Shown: piece after piece, positions 19,401 through 43,830 of the stretch
Layout of the letters: the number at the start of each line of letters is the position of its first letter
Position numbering within the stretch: position 1 is the stretch's first letter
Source of the DNA: Fimbriiglobus ruber
Lineage (GTDB): Bacteria; Planctomycetota; Planctomycetia; Gemmatales; Gemmataceae
NCBI RefSeq assembly: GCF_002197845.1
Contig: NZ_NIDE01000005.1
Location: 62,001-126,000 of the forward strand
DNA length: 64,000 bases
Direction: 5' to 3'
Program-made: the position numbers and the translations under genes
The notes under the pieces: generated by a model
Seen by the model: only the letters and a program-made list of their open reading frames with translations
What the model was told of the DNA's origin: nothing
Databases searched by the model: none

Positions 19401-20418
19401 CCGTCACCGACCCGACGGCCGCCTGGGTTTCGCAAAGGGCCGCGAAGAACTGATACCGGCTGGTATTTTCGCTACCGGGGAAATCTTTTAAAAGTTGTTC
19501 GTACTTTTTCTGAGAAACCGGGTAGTTGGCCTCCTTGTAAGCCTCTTGCGCCTCTTCGACTAACCGCTCCTCAGTCAGCGCGAAGTGTCGAAACAGCATG
19601 ACGACCGTCGCGACCACGGTCAGGACCAGGAGGCTGGCGACCGAGGCTAACAACACCTTGGACCATCCCCGGCCGCCCCGCCGACCGCTGCGCACGAACG
19701 GCGTCCCATCGTCCACGGGTTGGCGGGGCGGTGGGATCGTGATCGCGGGCGGCGCGGCCCCGGACCAATCGAGTTCCTTCGGTCCGCCTGCCGATTTCGG
19801 GGGCGGCAGAAGGATTGCGGGTGGGGCGTCGCCGGACCACGCGACTTCTTTCGGCCCGGTCGTTGTTCCCAGACCCGGCGTCCGTCCCGACCACGGCCCG
19901 GCCTCCCGGGCGACCGGCACGTTCAGCAGCTTGGCCTCGGGCGGGGGCGGCAGAAGGACCGCGGGTGGAGCCGGTGGCCGACCGGGCGGGCCGGGGAGCA
20001 GGATCGCGGGCGGCGCCGGCGGGGGCGCGGGCAGTCGTTCGGCGGGGCGCGGGGCGGGGCGGCCGGAGTCGCCCGCGAGGGTGGGCGTAAACGGCTCCGA
20101 TTCCCGGACGACCTCGAACCGCTCCGCCGCCTGGCCCTCGATCCGTTCGTAGGGCCGGCCGGTTTGCGGCGCGGCTTCGACTTCCAGAAAGGGCACGAAA
20201 TCCGACACGCGCCCCGCACTCGGGATCGGGGCGGGCGGCCCGGGCGGTGAGTGTTCGGGCGTGGCGGCCGGGGGTGGTTCGGGGGCCGTGGGCGGTCCCG
20301 CCTTCTCTTGAACCTCGAAGACTTCGCGGCATTCGGGACACCGCATCGACTTGCCGCGCAAGTCTGGGCTGAGCTGGAACTCGGTTTCGCAGTGCGGACA
20401 AACAACGGCGATCGTCAC
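16420..20418 (-). CDS. Giant zinc-ribbon, membrane-anchored PQQ/beta-propeller protein
   Basis: A 1332-residue protein. It opens with an MJ0042-type zinc ribbon (Cys7, Cys10, Cys27, Cys30), then a Pro-rich linker to about residue 255, one membrane segment (SKVLLASVASLLVLTVVATV), a helical TPR-like part (EAYKEANYPVSQKKYEQLL), and a long C-terminal half with PQQ/WD-like blades (LYALDAQTGGLLWGSRI, DVRTGQIRWQRRV, VALDLDRGEPAW). Such proteins in planctomycetes are of unknown function; the propeller probably faces the periplasm or lumen and binds a partner. The start chosen is GTG 20418 with GGGGAG five bases upstream; a GTG two codons earlier overlaps that site. It stands alone between two long intergenic regions. 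Confidence 0.8.
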   Translation of the reverse strand: MTIAVVCPHCETEFQLSPDLRGKSMRCPECREVFEVQEKAGPPTAPEPPPAATPEHSPPGPPAPIPSAGRVSDFVPFLEVEAAPQTGRPYERIEGQAAERFEVVRESEPFTPTLAGDSGRPAPRPAERLPAPPPAPPAILLPGPPGRPPAPPAVLLPPPPEAKLLNVPVAREAGPWSGRTPGLGTTTGPKEVAWSGDAPPAILLPPPKSAGGPKELDWSGAAPPAITIPPPRQPVDDGTPFVRSGRRGGRGWSKVLLASVASLLVLTVVATVVMLFRHFALTEERLVEEAQEAYKEANYPVSQKKYEQLLKDFPGSENTSRYQFFAALCETQAAVGSVTARENPAPAMKSFQGFVAEYGTSPHAQPGTGYGTDIVQVGRRLADTVADNGGDHLKTFKADRKKADELEATDRSIADGRALIPQVDKFRDKEAGSLDPQRGRFDALAKEVAAERARLAVLAPFRNLADDPTAARIEVFEKALADNKLTDDEEAKQMKAKAEARLRDIIRQQVYTPVPARRPPPDPYPPVLFAAAVANSPLPRPVPGTAADVVFAVARGVLYALDAQTGGLLWGSRIAAPTAGPQAADLPVRVSPGGGADDWVLIAGEWAGVPSMTARLARTGEVVWYQPLTPTAKGEPVAPAGRPVVIGTRAYVPLADRLGTVVEFDTATGDRTGEIALRQPIGAGMAVLPGTQPGVDYLFVAGDAKRVFALEVGSEDARGEKLPPRVVRVMLTEHPRGSLRGEPLVLASADPGGPRFLILTQIDGATGMKLRTFPLPATVAPEPTAATDPAAPASPAAATPVDAPTAAEVSVPGWSWFPAVSDGERVVLATDAGAFLAFGVNQAGNTDRPLFALPAPKPVADADAVARSQIVSADEDSYWAVLGGQLTRFRTAVGPAGGLRIVAMGAGRAVGEPVHRAQIRPASDLGVIVTRVGLSGNVQAVGFDVRTGQIRWQRRVGVTPAGPPVGPENGPLVVADEDGGVYAVSAANPSAAAVVAPPYADLATRAVTVGSTDGQTAWVLVPEVGPNGRRVRARATVGGVLKMDAVVPLPDQLAGAPVVMGGAVLVPLANGYVYRLAPGAAQFSQGPLWRGDTARGEPGAADPVCHLAPEGADEFLATDGGRAILLWKWPVAAGAKPEKKGGSWEAGGKIAIPPAVVPTAAGGRVVAADEAGVVYVFAVDKPGPPVARLRGSADGPIPAGTPTDRFVVAGPGDRAIAIYSVNHKILVALDLDRGEPAWVKTPAAQPDAGDLAGWVVRGDRVVATDQRGHLVVVDVATGTDVADIPPPISGAVATVPAVPLSESAALVVLADGTGTVVELSPQAEVAPEPRKK

Positions 20419-41371: not shown

Positions 41372-42598
41372 TTAGCGGTCCAGTTCCGCGGCGATGATGT
41401 TCAGGCTGCCCAGAATCGCGGGCACGTCCGAAATCTGGTGCCCTTCCATGATCTTCGGGAAGATCCCGAAGTGGATGAACGACGGCGGCCGGGTCCGCGC
41501 CCGGAACGCCTTGCCGCTGCCGTCCGCCACCAGATAGAACCCGAGTTCGCCGTTGGCCGTCTCGTTCGCCCCGTACAGTTCTTCCACCGGCGTCTCGAAC
41601 CGGCGGTTCCACATGAACAGTTCAAAGTGCTGGATCAGCCCCTCAATGCTCCGGTAGGTCGCGCTCTTGTCCGGGATCACGAGTTTGCTGTCGAGGGCCA
41701 CGTTCACCGGGCCGCTTGGGATGTTCTCGACGGCCGCCGCGATGATCTTGGCCGACTCCAACATCTCGTCCATGCGAACCAGGTACCGGGCCAGACAGTC
41801 CCCGCCGTTCGAGCAGACGACTTTGAACGCGCTTTGGAGTTCGGGGTACGCGAGGTACGGCTCGTCCTTCCGCAAGTCGCGGACGACGCCGGACGCGCGG
41901 GCCACCGGGCCGGAGCAACTCGTGTTGATCGCCTCGGCCTTCGTGAGGACGCCGACGCCCTTGGTGCGGTCGATGAAGATCTTGTTCCGGTTCAGCAGGC
42001 GAACGACGTCGGCATGTGCTTTCGCGAAGCTCTTGGCGAAGTCCCGCACCTGGGTCACGAACTCGTCGTTCACGTCCGCCATCAACCCGCCGACCCGCGT
42101 GTAGCTCGGGTGGAACCGCTGGCCGGACGCGTTCTCGATGATGTTGTAGACCTTTTCCCGCTCGTTGAACGCGTACAGGAAGGCGGTCAGCCCGCCGAGG
42201 TCGAGGGCGGCCGCCCCGATGCAGAGCAGGTGGTCCGAGATGCGGGCTAGTTCGGCGAGGATGGTGCGGATGTACTTGCACCGCGGCGTGATCTCGATGC
42301 CGAGCAGTTTCTCGACCGTGTGGTGCCAGGCGATCTCGTTGGCGACCGGCGAGATGTAGTTCATCCGGTCGACGACGGTGACGTACTGGTTGAAGTCGAG
42401 GTCTTCGCCGAGCTTTTCGAACCCGGAGTGCAGGTAGCCGATGTCCGGGACGGCCTTGACGATCGTCTCGCCGTCGAGGGTGAGGACGAGGCGCAGGGTG
42501 GTGTGCGTGGCCGGGTGCTGCGGGCCGAAGTTCAGGGTGTACAGGTACTCCTGGTCGGCACCCGCGTCGTCGATCTGGGCCACGGCTTCGAGAGGCAT
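41372..42598 (-). CDS. nuoD: NADH-quinone oxidoreductase subunit D
   Basis: 49-kDa-type subunit that forms the quinone-binding site with NuoB. The 408 residues show LNFGPQHPATHTTLRLVLTLDGE (the conserved His pair of the quinone site), DRMNYISPVANE, and SFIHFGIFPKIMEGHQISDVPAILGSLNI-type C-terminal motifs. ATG 42598 has GGAG six bases upstream. NuoC and NuoD are separate genes here, and a repeat-flanked GxxExxY gene lies between them, its left repeat starting just outside the nuoD binding site. Confidence 0.96.
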   Translation of the reverse strand: MPLEAVAQIDDAGADQEYLYTLNFGPQHPATHTTLRLVLTLDGETIVKAVPDIGYLHSGFEKLGEDLDFNQYVTVVDRMNYISPVANEIAWHHTVEKLLGIEITPRCKYIRTILAELARISDHLLCIGAAALDLGGLTAFLYAFNEREKVYNIIENASGQRFHPSYTRVGGLMADVNDEFVTQVRDFAKSFAKAHADVVRLLNRNKIFIDRTKGVGVLTKAEAINTSCSGPVARASGVVRDLRKDEPYLAYPELQSAFKVVCSNGGDCLARYLVRMDEMLESAKIIAAAVENIPSGPVNVALDSKLVIPDKSATYRSIEGLIQHFELFMWNRRFETPVEELYGANETANGELGFYLVADGSGKAFRARTRPPSFIHFGIFPKIMEGHQISDVPAILGSLNIIAAELDR

Positions 42599-42612
42599 GA
42601 CAAGCTCCAAAT

Positions 42613-42652
42613 CCTTTTTCACCGCAGAGGGCACGAGAGGGCGCGGAGAAGA
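42613..42652 (+). repeat. Left 40-bp inverted repeat of the GxxExxY cassette
   Basis: Perfect reverse complement of 43282-43321. Starts CCTTTTTCAC and ends GCGGAGAAGA. Confidence 0.95.
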
Positions 42653-42750
42653 ACCAGAATGATAAATTCAATCTGGAAAAACCGCCGGGGCTCTCGTCAT
42701 GCCACTTACACACCAACAGAGAGCAGAGAGTACGCGGAGAAAAACCGGGA

Positions 42751-43152
42751 TCAATCCGGGAAGTCTCGCACGACTCTCTTCACGCCGTCCACCAACCGCG
42801 TCACGTTAAAGTTCATTAATAGCCCGAGGTTCAAGCCCATAAGCCGCAGGTAGGTTTGGACCTGGGCTTCGTGAACCCGCTCGAACCGTTCGATCGCCTT
42901 GACCTCCACAAGCAGTGCGTCGTTGACGAGCAAGTCGATTCGGAATCCGCAATCGACCTTCATCCCACGGTAAACAACCGGTAGGGCTTTCTGTCGTTCG
43001 ACCGTCATCCCGCGGCTCAGAAGTTCAAATTCCAGGCACGCTTCGTAAGCCGATTCCAGCAACCCTGGCCCTAATTCTCGGTGGACAGCAATCGCGGCCC
43101 CGATCACTGCCTCGGAGAGCCGATTCAACTCATCTTTTGTCGTTACCCTCAT
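42751..43152 (-). CDS. GxxExxY protein, putative PD-(D/E)xK-fold nuclease
   Basis: A 133-residue protein with the family signature Gly30-Leu-Leu-Glu33-Ser-Ala-Tyr36. Asp73 (GFRIDLLV) and the Glu83-Val-Lys85 pair (LLVEVKAIE) fit the catalytic D...ExK pattern of the PD-(D/E)xK nuclease superfamily, to which GxxExxY proteins are assigned. Biological role unknown; such genes occur in many copies in some planctomycete and other genomes. It lies in the nuo operon direction between nuoC and nuoD, inside a pair of perfect 40-base inverted repeats. The ATG at 43152 lacks a good ribosome binding site. All proposed catalytic residues are present, so it may be active. Confidence 0.88.
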   Translation of the reverse strand: MRVTTKDELNRLSEAVIGAAIAVHRELGPGLLESAYEACLEFELLSRGMTVERQKALPVVYRGMKVDCGFRIDLLVNDALLVEVKAIERFERVHEAQVQTYLRLMGLNLGLLMNFNVTRLVDGVKRVVRDFPD

Positions 43153-43281
43153 GAACGATCAACGCATTGGGGTGAAGCATGAACTCCCGAACTCTTAAAC
43201 GTTACTTTCTCTCTTCTTCTCTGCGCCCCTCTGCGGTGAAATCTCTTCTTTGTCTTCTCTGAAATCTCTTCTCTGTTTTTG

Positions 43282-43321
43282 TCTTCTCCGCGCCCTCTCG
43301 TGCCCTCTGCGGTGAAAAAGG
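43282..43321 (-). repeat. Right 40-bp inverted repeat of the GxxExxY cassette
   Basis: Perfect reverse complement of 42613-42652; ends two bases before the nuoC stop codon. Confidence 0.95.
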
Positions 43322-43323
43322 TT

Positions 43324-43830
43324 TTATCCTTCTGCCCGCGTCACGGTCACGAAGTTGTGCCGTTCGCCGGCGCCACGTAGCGGGTAGTCTTTTCGTAGTG
43401 GGAAGCTCGTGAACTCGTCCGGCATGAGGATGCGGCGGAGGTCCGGGTGGCCGGTGAAGGTCACGCCGAACATGTCGTACACCTCGCGCTCCATCCAGTT
43501 CGCCCCCTCCCACAGCGGGACCGCGGACGGCAGCGCGGGGTCGGGGTCGTTGGCGTGCGCCTTCACGAAGACGCGCTCGCCGGTCGCCGTGTTGGTCAGG
43601 GCGTAGACCACGGCGAAACGGTCGGCCGCACCGGGGTAATTCAGGTAGTCGATGCCCGCGAGGTCGGCGAGCATGTCGAACCCGCACTCGTTTTTCAGGC
43701 ACGCGAGCAGGCCGAAGATCACGTCCGGCGACTTGTCCGCGGCCACCGACACGCGGCGGTTGTCGCGGAACTCGGAGGTCGTGAAGGCGCCGTTAAACTT
43801 CTGCGTCAGAACGTCGAGGTAACCGGGCAT
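43324..43830 (-). CDS. nuoC: NADH-quinone oxidoreductase subunit C
   Basis: 30-kDa-type subunit of the peripheral arm of complex I, 168 residues. The family motif WMEREVYDMFGVTFTGHPDLRRILMP (residues 110-136) is complete, followed by FPLRKDYPL. ATG 43830, 28 bases after nuoB. The TAA stop at 43324 lies directly beside the right repeat of the GxxExxY cassette. Confidence 0.95.
   Translation of the reverse strand: MPGYLDVLTQKFNGAFTTSEFRDNRRVSVAADKSPDVIFGLLACLKNECGFDMLADLAGIDYLNYPGAADRFAVVYALTNTATGERVFVKAHANDPDPALPSAVPLWEGANWMEREVYDMFGVTFTGHPDLRRILMPDEFTSFPLRKDYPLRGAGERHNFVTVTRAEG

Follow-up and report, generated by a model that had tools for sequence, protein, structure and literature searches.

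The closest described counterparts of the locus analysed here are the REPtrons, in which RAYT (TnpA-REP) genes are associated with REP and BIME palindromes (PMC2817692, PMC8266576, PMC3733652). In the accessible parts of these sources, including the study of RAYTs by Nunvar et al. 2010 (PMC2817692), the gene is flanked by two inverted REPs, gene-less repeats are dispersed and occur as BIMEs, gene and repeat co-evolve, and repeat abundance is correlated with the gene. RAYT proteins are HUH single-tyrosine transposases of the IS200/IS605 group, and the REP is a tagged single-strand stem-loop.

For the GxxExxY genes that are the subject of this analysis, literature searches by the names GxxExxY, TIGR04256 and PF13366, by unit strings of the repeats and by REP/RAYT and MITE terms found, among the papers listed, neither a link between gene and repeat nor an experiment, most subscription papers and all bioRxiv preprints lying outside their scope. 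MITEs with a parent DDE insertion sequence combine terminal inverted repeats with short gene-less copies and intergenic placement. Among PD-(D/E)XK enzymes, the Rpn/YhgA-like recombination-promoting nucleases and TnsA are tied to DNA movement; we know of no partnership with arms of the GxxExxY kind for either. To our knowledge no PD-(D/E)XK enzyme of the size of GxxExxY transposes DNA alone.

The window, i.e. the whole stretch of 64,000 nucleotides of Fimbriiglobus ruber DNA that was analysed, carries a GxxExxY gene between nuoC and nuoD with the following features.

42613 to 42652, + strand: outer inverted arm beside nuoD, perfect over 40 nt, with a 44-nt extension from 42609 to 42652
43282 to 43321, − strand: outer inverted arm beside nuoC, perfect over 40 nt, with an extension up to 43325
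42751 to 43152, − strand: GxxExxY / PDDEXK_3 gene of 133 aa, predicted PD-(D/E)XK nuclease
43217 to 43244, − strand: inner copy of the arm, lying 5' of the gene, CACCGCAGAGGGGCGCAGAG, boundaries judged by eye
42726 to 42751, + strand: degenerate inner copy of the arm, lying 3' of the gene, 81% over 26 nt
43324 to 43830, − strand: nuoC, intact, upstream neighbour, its stop ending at 43324
41372 to 42598, − strand: nuoD, intact, downstream neighbour, ATG at 42598, GGAG ribosome binding site retained

The preliminary description had proposed a minimal mobile cassette, one nuclease gene between perfect 40-bp inverted repeats that was inserted between nuoC and nuoD without harm. Computation re-found these arms, which are 98% complementary over 44 nt (42609-42652 and 43282-43325) with the central 40 perfect. 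The 133-aa frame is the sole ORF of at least 80 aa that lies wholly between them, and it matches both PF13366 and TIGR04256. The signature residues G30, E33, Y36, D73, E83 and K85 are invariant or nearly so in alignments of 26 and 47 sequences. Both neighbouring frames, which are co-directional with the GxxExxY gene, are intact and nuoD keeps its GGAG, bearing out the harmless insertion. Of the inner repeat copies described at both ends, the 5' one is clear, with a 15-nt exact pair and a two-unit match at 43219-43235. The 3' copy is degenerate, and the alignment of the two with each other (score 14) does not rise above shuffled sequence (maximum 15 in 300 shuffles). The inner repeats are no more than a hint of a second cassette nested here. 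Elsewhere in the window, at 19431-19447 (+), lies a solitary unit pair, CGCAAAGGGCCGCGAAG, perhaps a decayed arm.

The window protein belongs clearly to its family (PF13366, E 5.4e-42, 143.3 bits against a curated cut-off of 22; TIGR04256, E 1.9e-42, 144.3 bits against 35), the G..E..Y signature being invariant in 47 sequences. A domain search of the protein returned PF13366 alone and no HUH Y1 transposase domain (PF01797). An AF2 model built from 47 sequences has a pLDDT of 94.8, and its comparison by Foldseek ranked LHK-Exo first (E 3e-3), followed by Cas4 SSO0001 (E 5e-3), lambda exonuclease and Holliday resolvase, with no match at E <= 1e-3; tRNA-splicing endonucleases are also among the structural matches. 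VIA-align likewise placed Cas4 SSO0001 (4ic1) on top, with 99 residues aligned at an rmsd of 3.3 Å and Z 9.2, all others having Z 8.0 or less, a range where middling Z values are common. At the sequence level PADLOC gave Cas4 at E 9e-4 and PHROGs a single weak unnamed match (E 0.05), and a search of the PDB gave no match at E <= 10. The model thus predicts a Cas4/lambda-exonuclease-like PD-(D/E)XK fold, and both fold and active-site arrangement, as predicted, are shared with Cas4, lambda exonuclease, RecB-type nucleases and Hjc. We take the E...D...ExK...Q...Y pattern of the protein to resemble that of RecB/Cas4 enzymes. Cas4 needs a four-cysteine Fe-S cluster; the window protein differs from Cas4-type enzymes in its size of 133 aa, in having only two cysteines and hence no Fe-S set, and in its tie to palindromic arms. 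A survey of reverse transcriptases mentions a neighbouring gene to which one program gave the name cas4 and another the name GxxExxY (PMC8934634).

The arrangement at the nuo locus is not an isolated one: matching inverted repeats enclose the GxxExxY gene in numerous bacteria and in one archaeon at least. In named genomes, where 80 loci were taken from the matches listed in one scan and 76 were testable, an arm score of at least 18 was reached at 39/76 loci and in 0/250 control intervals from the same loci. Pooling the named loci with those of Planctomycetes relatives, the Niabella group and others gave 245 unique genes, 239 of them testable (six lie at contig edges; the 76 named loci are a subset). 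Here 138/239 loci reached a score of 18 as compared to 2/317 control intervals, and 180 of 239 reached 14 as compared to 10 of 317. By set, scores of at least 18 were found at 77/110 loci in the Planctomycetes class, 38/71 named loci, 11/15 of their other copies, 8/38 in the Niabella group and 4/5 others. Arms are frequent and not universal, 101/239 loci scoring below 18 and 59/239 below 14. An initial control, in which the left flank of one locus was paired with the right flank of another (381 pairings, 95% point 34), was dropped, since it was inflated by repeat words shared between loci and by looser scoring; same-locus intervals and stricter scoring replaced it. At L172, L196 and their Niabella-group orthologues the gene lies inside tandem arrays of ~104 bp, with arm words that differ (CGCGAAG versus CGCAATG).

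Within the 12.4-Mb genome of F. ruber the 35-nt core of the arm occurs in 16 copies at up to three mismatches, the reversed control giving none. Two are the window's own arms, and of the other 14, 13 form head-to-head gene-less palindromes and one (L016) has no partner arm that could be seen. Of the 16 arm loci only the window's own two gave a GxxExxY match, and no remnant of the gene was detected in 20 palindromes of this genome or in 16 empty loci of sister species. The genome has one further GxxExxY gene, within inverted arms of another word, GGCCACAAAAAGGCACAAAAA. Most copies of the repeat thus lie far from GxxExxY, a distribution that the preliminary description would have taken as refuting the cassette idea. 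We do not count it as a refutation, because 13 of the 14 remote copies form gene-less palindromes, as expected for non-autonomous copies, and because repeat abundance follows gene presence across genomes (see below). What holds of the cassette idea is the one-gene unit in inverted repeats, with no recognised transposase inside and the same architecture in many phyla; what does not is its stand-alone, minimal character, as a dispersed repeat population exists beside the gene. We read the segment, with a probability of roughly 0.66, as the autonomous member, the one with the gene, of a family of REP-like palindromes whose partner is a small Cas4/lambda-exonuclease-like GxxExxY nuclease.

In the gene-less palindromes listed for this genome, unlike at the gene loci (see below), the two arms often share their spacer variants, yet these variants differ from palindrome to palindrome, which would point to arm-to-arm homogenisation or fold-back copying. 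At L389 (G000:C5:228558-229749) and L383 (G000:C2:340575-341661) the loops of CACAGAG palindromes hold a long palindrome family, GGTCTCCGACCC..., and L389 appears by eye to be a triple nesting.

Across 119 genomes a triple of the CAGAG-type word was found in 45, with five matches of the reversed control in all 119 (one in G019, four in G023). The word was present in 39/70 gene-bearing genomes (488 matches) and in 6/49 gene-less ones (13 matches; Fisher p=1e-6). Leaving out the genome of the window, which accounts for 72 of the 488, gives 38/69 gene-bearing genomes and 416 matches, and collapsing to genera with at least two matches per genome gives 21/46 gene-bearing versus 0/22 gene-less (p=4.6e-5). 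In 58 genomes, from each of which some but not necessarily all genes were read, the number of CAGAG matches goes with the GPGLLE clade (mean 14.0 vs 1.5, p=8e-6). The number of CACGGAT matches goes with the PGLDE clade (17.2 vs 3.0, p=0.006), though not with the GYGF clade (0.7 vs 5.5). The fit of the CACGGAT word is incomplete: several genomes rich in it, this one included (36 matches beside the 72 of CAGAG type; reversed control 0 here), lack a PGLDE gene in the set that was read, likewise G006, G032 and G072, and neither of the two GxxExxY genes of F. ruber falls in clades carrying CACGGAT. The six gene-less genomes with the CAGAG-type word also speak against the autonomous-element reading. 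Repeat words that persist with no matching gene among the genes read would be accounted for if another enzyme (a RAYT/IS200-type or DDE transposase, or host recombination) spread the palindromes and GxxExxY were a passenger settled in the loop. The F. ruber genome does contain three Y1_Tnp genes; the 1.5 kb on each side of them, however, hold no pair of CRCNRAG units, the one word scanned there.

The content of the head-to-head pairs also argues against a passenger. In G003, G051 and G065, whose 48, 38 and 30 CAGAG-type matches were all listed, 11, 16 and 9 adjacent head-to-head pairs lie within 3 kb. The spacing is 54-131 bp in 33/36 of them, and the three gene-sized pairs (493, 424 and 489 bp) contain GxxExxY in 3/3 cases. 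G082, with 34/35 matches listed, is less clean, as its gene lies amid tandem arms and its wider pairs measure 315 and 2137 bp. Regular, BIME-like arrays occur in the Niabella group (~104 bp), G003 and G082.

Protein and arm vary together. Over 162 loci with an arm score of at least 16, protein distance is correlated with the distance of arm 5-mers (Mantel r=0.294, p=0.001, permutation maximum 0.104), and arms grow less alike as proteins diverge, with a mean similarity of 0.61 at protein distances <0.2 (10 pairs) and 0.06 at >0.7. The correlation is retained across phyla, with phylum labels assigned by the analyst (r=0.323, p=0.001; maximum 0.181 with arms shuffled within phyla), and is 0.304 for cross-phylum pairs at distances >0.4. 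In 30 genomes with at least two such genes, an arm was nearer to that of the closest protein in another genome, possibly of the same genus, than to the arms of its own sister copies in 65 comparisons versus 15 (p=5e-11); the strict within-genome Mantel test is weak (p=0.036). Clades and words pair as GPGLLESAYE with CACAGAG/CGCAGAG, PGLDEKLYE with CACGGAT, GCGFLEAVYQECLE with CACGAAAAG, GHLEKVYENAL with CACAAAAAGG and GSGFLEKVYENALA with ACAGGATTA-like words, and paralogues with different words coexist in single genomes. Common descent of the linked gene and arm adds to this co-variation; at cross-phylum distances neutral flanks should be saturated. Such a cross-phylum match of clade and word would not be expected of a passenger, and even though no target duplication was seen (see below), which fits the action of another enzyme, we regard that explanation as unlikely. 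The partnership of GxxExxY gene and palindrome, on which the autonomous-element reading builds, is well supported.

Mobility is supported indirectly. One line of evidence is the distribution of occupied and empty sites. A search for nuoC in 41 genomes gave matches in 39 and returned 30 loci, one being the window itself. Both nuoC and nuoD were visible in 27 of the 29 others, relatives at genus to class level and hence too distant to show the precise insertion point, and none of the 27 has GxxExxY between them, confirming the empty junctions that the preliminary description had suggested looking for. The gap measures 4-290 bp in 26/27 and 922 bp, with a different ORF, in one; a scan of the 29 non-window nuo loci with the GxxExxY profile gave no match. 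Closer comparisons come from the Niabella group, where GxxExxY is present in 17/17 genomes with 2-11 matches each, fragments counted, and where the flanks of occupied loci were searched in ten genomes. The flank-to-flank span of L221 is 2228 bp in the occupied genome (G135) and 1831-1898 bp in nine others, that of L223 is 2248 bp (G135) and 1804 bp in two sisters with full flanks (G146, G139), and that of L229 is 2243 bp (G146) as compared to 1708 (G135), 1808 (G145) and 1877 bp (G139). The flanks are thus 330-535 bp closer in sister species than in the occupied genome, and alignment of some of the loci places the absence of the gene at the same intergenic position. In each of the three occupied copies the gene is broken by in-frame stops or split frames, so that at each locus the sisters may instead have lost the gene. 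Neither flank search and alignment of the three Niabella-group loci nor inspection by eye of the F. ruber copies revealed a consistent target-site duplication. The Niabella-group flanks are 74-90% identical with poorly aligning intergenic DNA, and this divergence leaves neither a duplication nor an exact empty-site junction readable.

The arms themselves consist of about 3-4 short units (e.g. CRCNRAG) that are, by eye, about 9-11 bp apart. At the 86 loci whose arms each hold two or more CRCNRAG units, arms >70 nt being excluded, arm-to-arm mismatches affect 8/990 positions of the unit core C.C..AG, 98/744 variable positions within units and 137/433 (32%) spacer positions. The core figure is somewhat favoured, as units were defined on one arm and loci picked for units; the contrast to the spacers is large. 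Conserved units with drifting spacers indicate that what is conserved is the motif and not the pairing of a hairpin.

A motif of this kind fits a binding site, and the arms might accordingly be operators or host nucleoprotein sites, GxxExxY regulating itself or processing cruciforms without mobility, with an old and incidental dispersal. Three further observations agree with a host function. At 139 loci with an arm score of at least 16, enough flank and clear longest frames, an approximate count (nine unclear) found both neighbours co-directional with GxxExxY at 97, both opposite at 10 and a mixed orientation at 32, as if the gene relied on operon read-through or inserted with orientation; annotated contexts are fabD-GxxExxY-fabG, radA-GxxExxY and ade-GxxExxY. 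The gene is under purifying selection in four orthologous Niabella-group pairs (dN/dS about 0.07-0.23), and Holliday resolvases are among its structural neighbours. The many head-to-head gene-less copies per genome, the presence and absence between sister species together with decayed copies, and the paralogues with different words in one genome are not what operators would lead one to expect, and we consider this explanation slightly less probable than that of a passenger. That the repeats act as RNA, transcribed hairpins being cut by GxxExxY or RNase III to separate gene expression inside operons, would suit the perfect 40-nt arms around a co-directional gene in the window and the orientation bias across loci, and is very improbable given the unconserved pairing between arms, the numerous gene-less copies and structural matches that are mainly DNA nucleases, tRNA-splicing endonucleases notwithstanding.

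Returning to the autonomous palindromic element, its sites include older palindromes. In 5/30 elements of the F. ruber genome, chosen for easily found arms rather than at random, the palindrome continues for at least 12 nt beyond the arms, compared to 1/870 mismatched pairings. L389, L017, L385 and L386 end in an inner arm, of ATCAGAA or TCAGAA type, that belongs to an older element; this suggests insertion at palindrome centres. These four loci and L380 sit at the centres of older palindromes, whose outer complementarity reaches the insert; inspection by eye showed no direct repeats at them.

Carriage by other replicons was also considered. At E <= 1e-5 the window protein had no match in 50,697 phage records and matched 7 of 72,556 plasmid records, so that GxxExxY genes are probably not mainly phage- or plasmid-borne. 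Three loci on viral contigs were found by one peptide pattern. L079, on a putative viral contig of 34.7 kb, has a GxxExxY gene with CACGGATGAA-type arms. A GxxExxY gene is tabulated for an algal virus genome in the accessible part of PMC12085832.

From these patterns we infer how such an element might work. The nuclease, probably an oligomer, would recognise the units of each arm, about three in helical phase, and would nick or cut at the palindrome. Replication or repair by the host would then copy or move the palindrome, whether or not its loop holds the gene. New sites would be intergenic DNA and the centres of older palindromes, targeting of the apex being conjectural like the role of the nuclease as mover. 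Gene-less palindromes would be non-autonomous derivatives served in trans, and the gene would probably be expressed through read-through from the host operon.

By analogy, such a system would work like a REPtron and not be one. As far as the accessible parts of the REPtron literature go, the likeness extends, in tendency, to the gene between two inverted repeats, the dispersed gene-less repeats with tandem BIME-like arrays at some loci, the co-evolution of gene and repeat, seen here as co-variation, and the link of repeat abundance to the gene, evident here for the CAGAG-type word and weaker or partly contrary for the CACGGAT type. The differences lie in the enzyme, an HUH single-tyrosine transposase in one case and a predicted PD-(D/E)XK protein with no HUH domain found in the other, and in the repeat, a tagged single-strand stem-loop as opposed to arms of three or so helically spaced units. 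With MITE/DDE elements the GxxExxY element shares terminal inverted repeats, short gene-less copies and intergenic sites; the window unit contains no DDE transposase, and no target duplication was seen, the empty sites being too diverged to read one.

A wider proposal, which we put forward tentatively and rate at somewhat below even chances, is that of an undescribed class of mobile palindromes, in which a stand-alone Cas4-like nuclease reads phased words, a word of its own in each clade, and spreads palindromes in many phyla of bacteria and in at least one lineage of archaea, with a preference for palindrome apices, i.e. the tips of hairpins or cruciforms. If the nuclease does spread palindromes, the system would be a convergent counterpart of RAYT and REP built on unrelated chemistry. 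The table of clades and words would supply natural pairs of protein-DNA recognition. For the very widespread uncharacterised family TIGR04256/PF13366 the analysis offers a candidate function and a DNA partner. It also offers a candidate agent for extragenic repeats that are dispersed in genomes, with words such as CACAGAGGACACAGAG and CACGGATGAACACGGAT.
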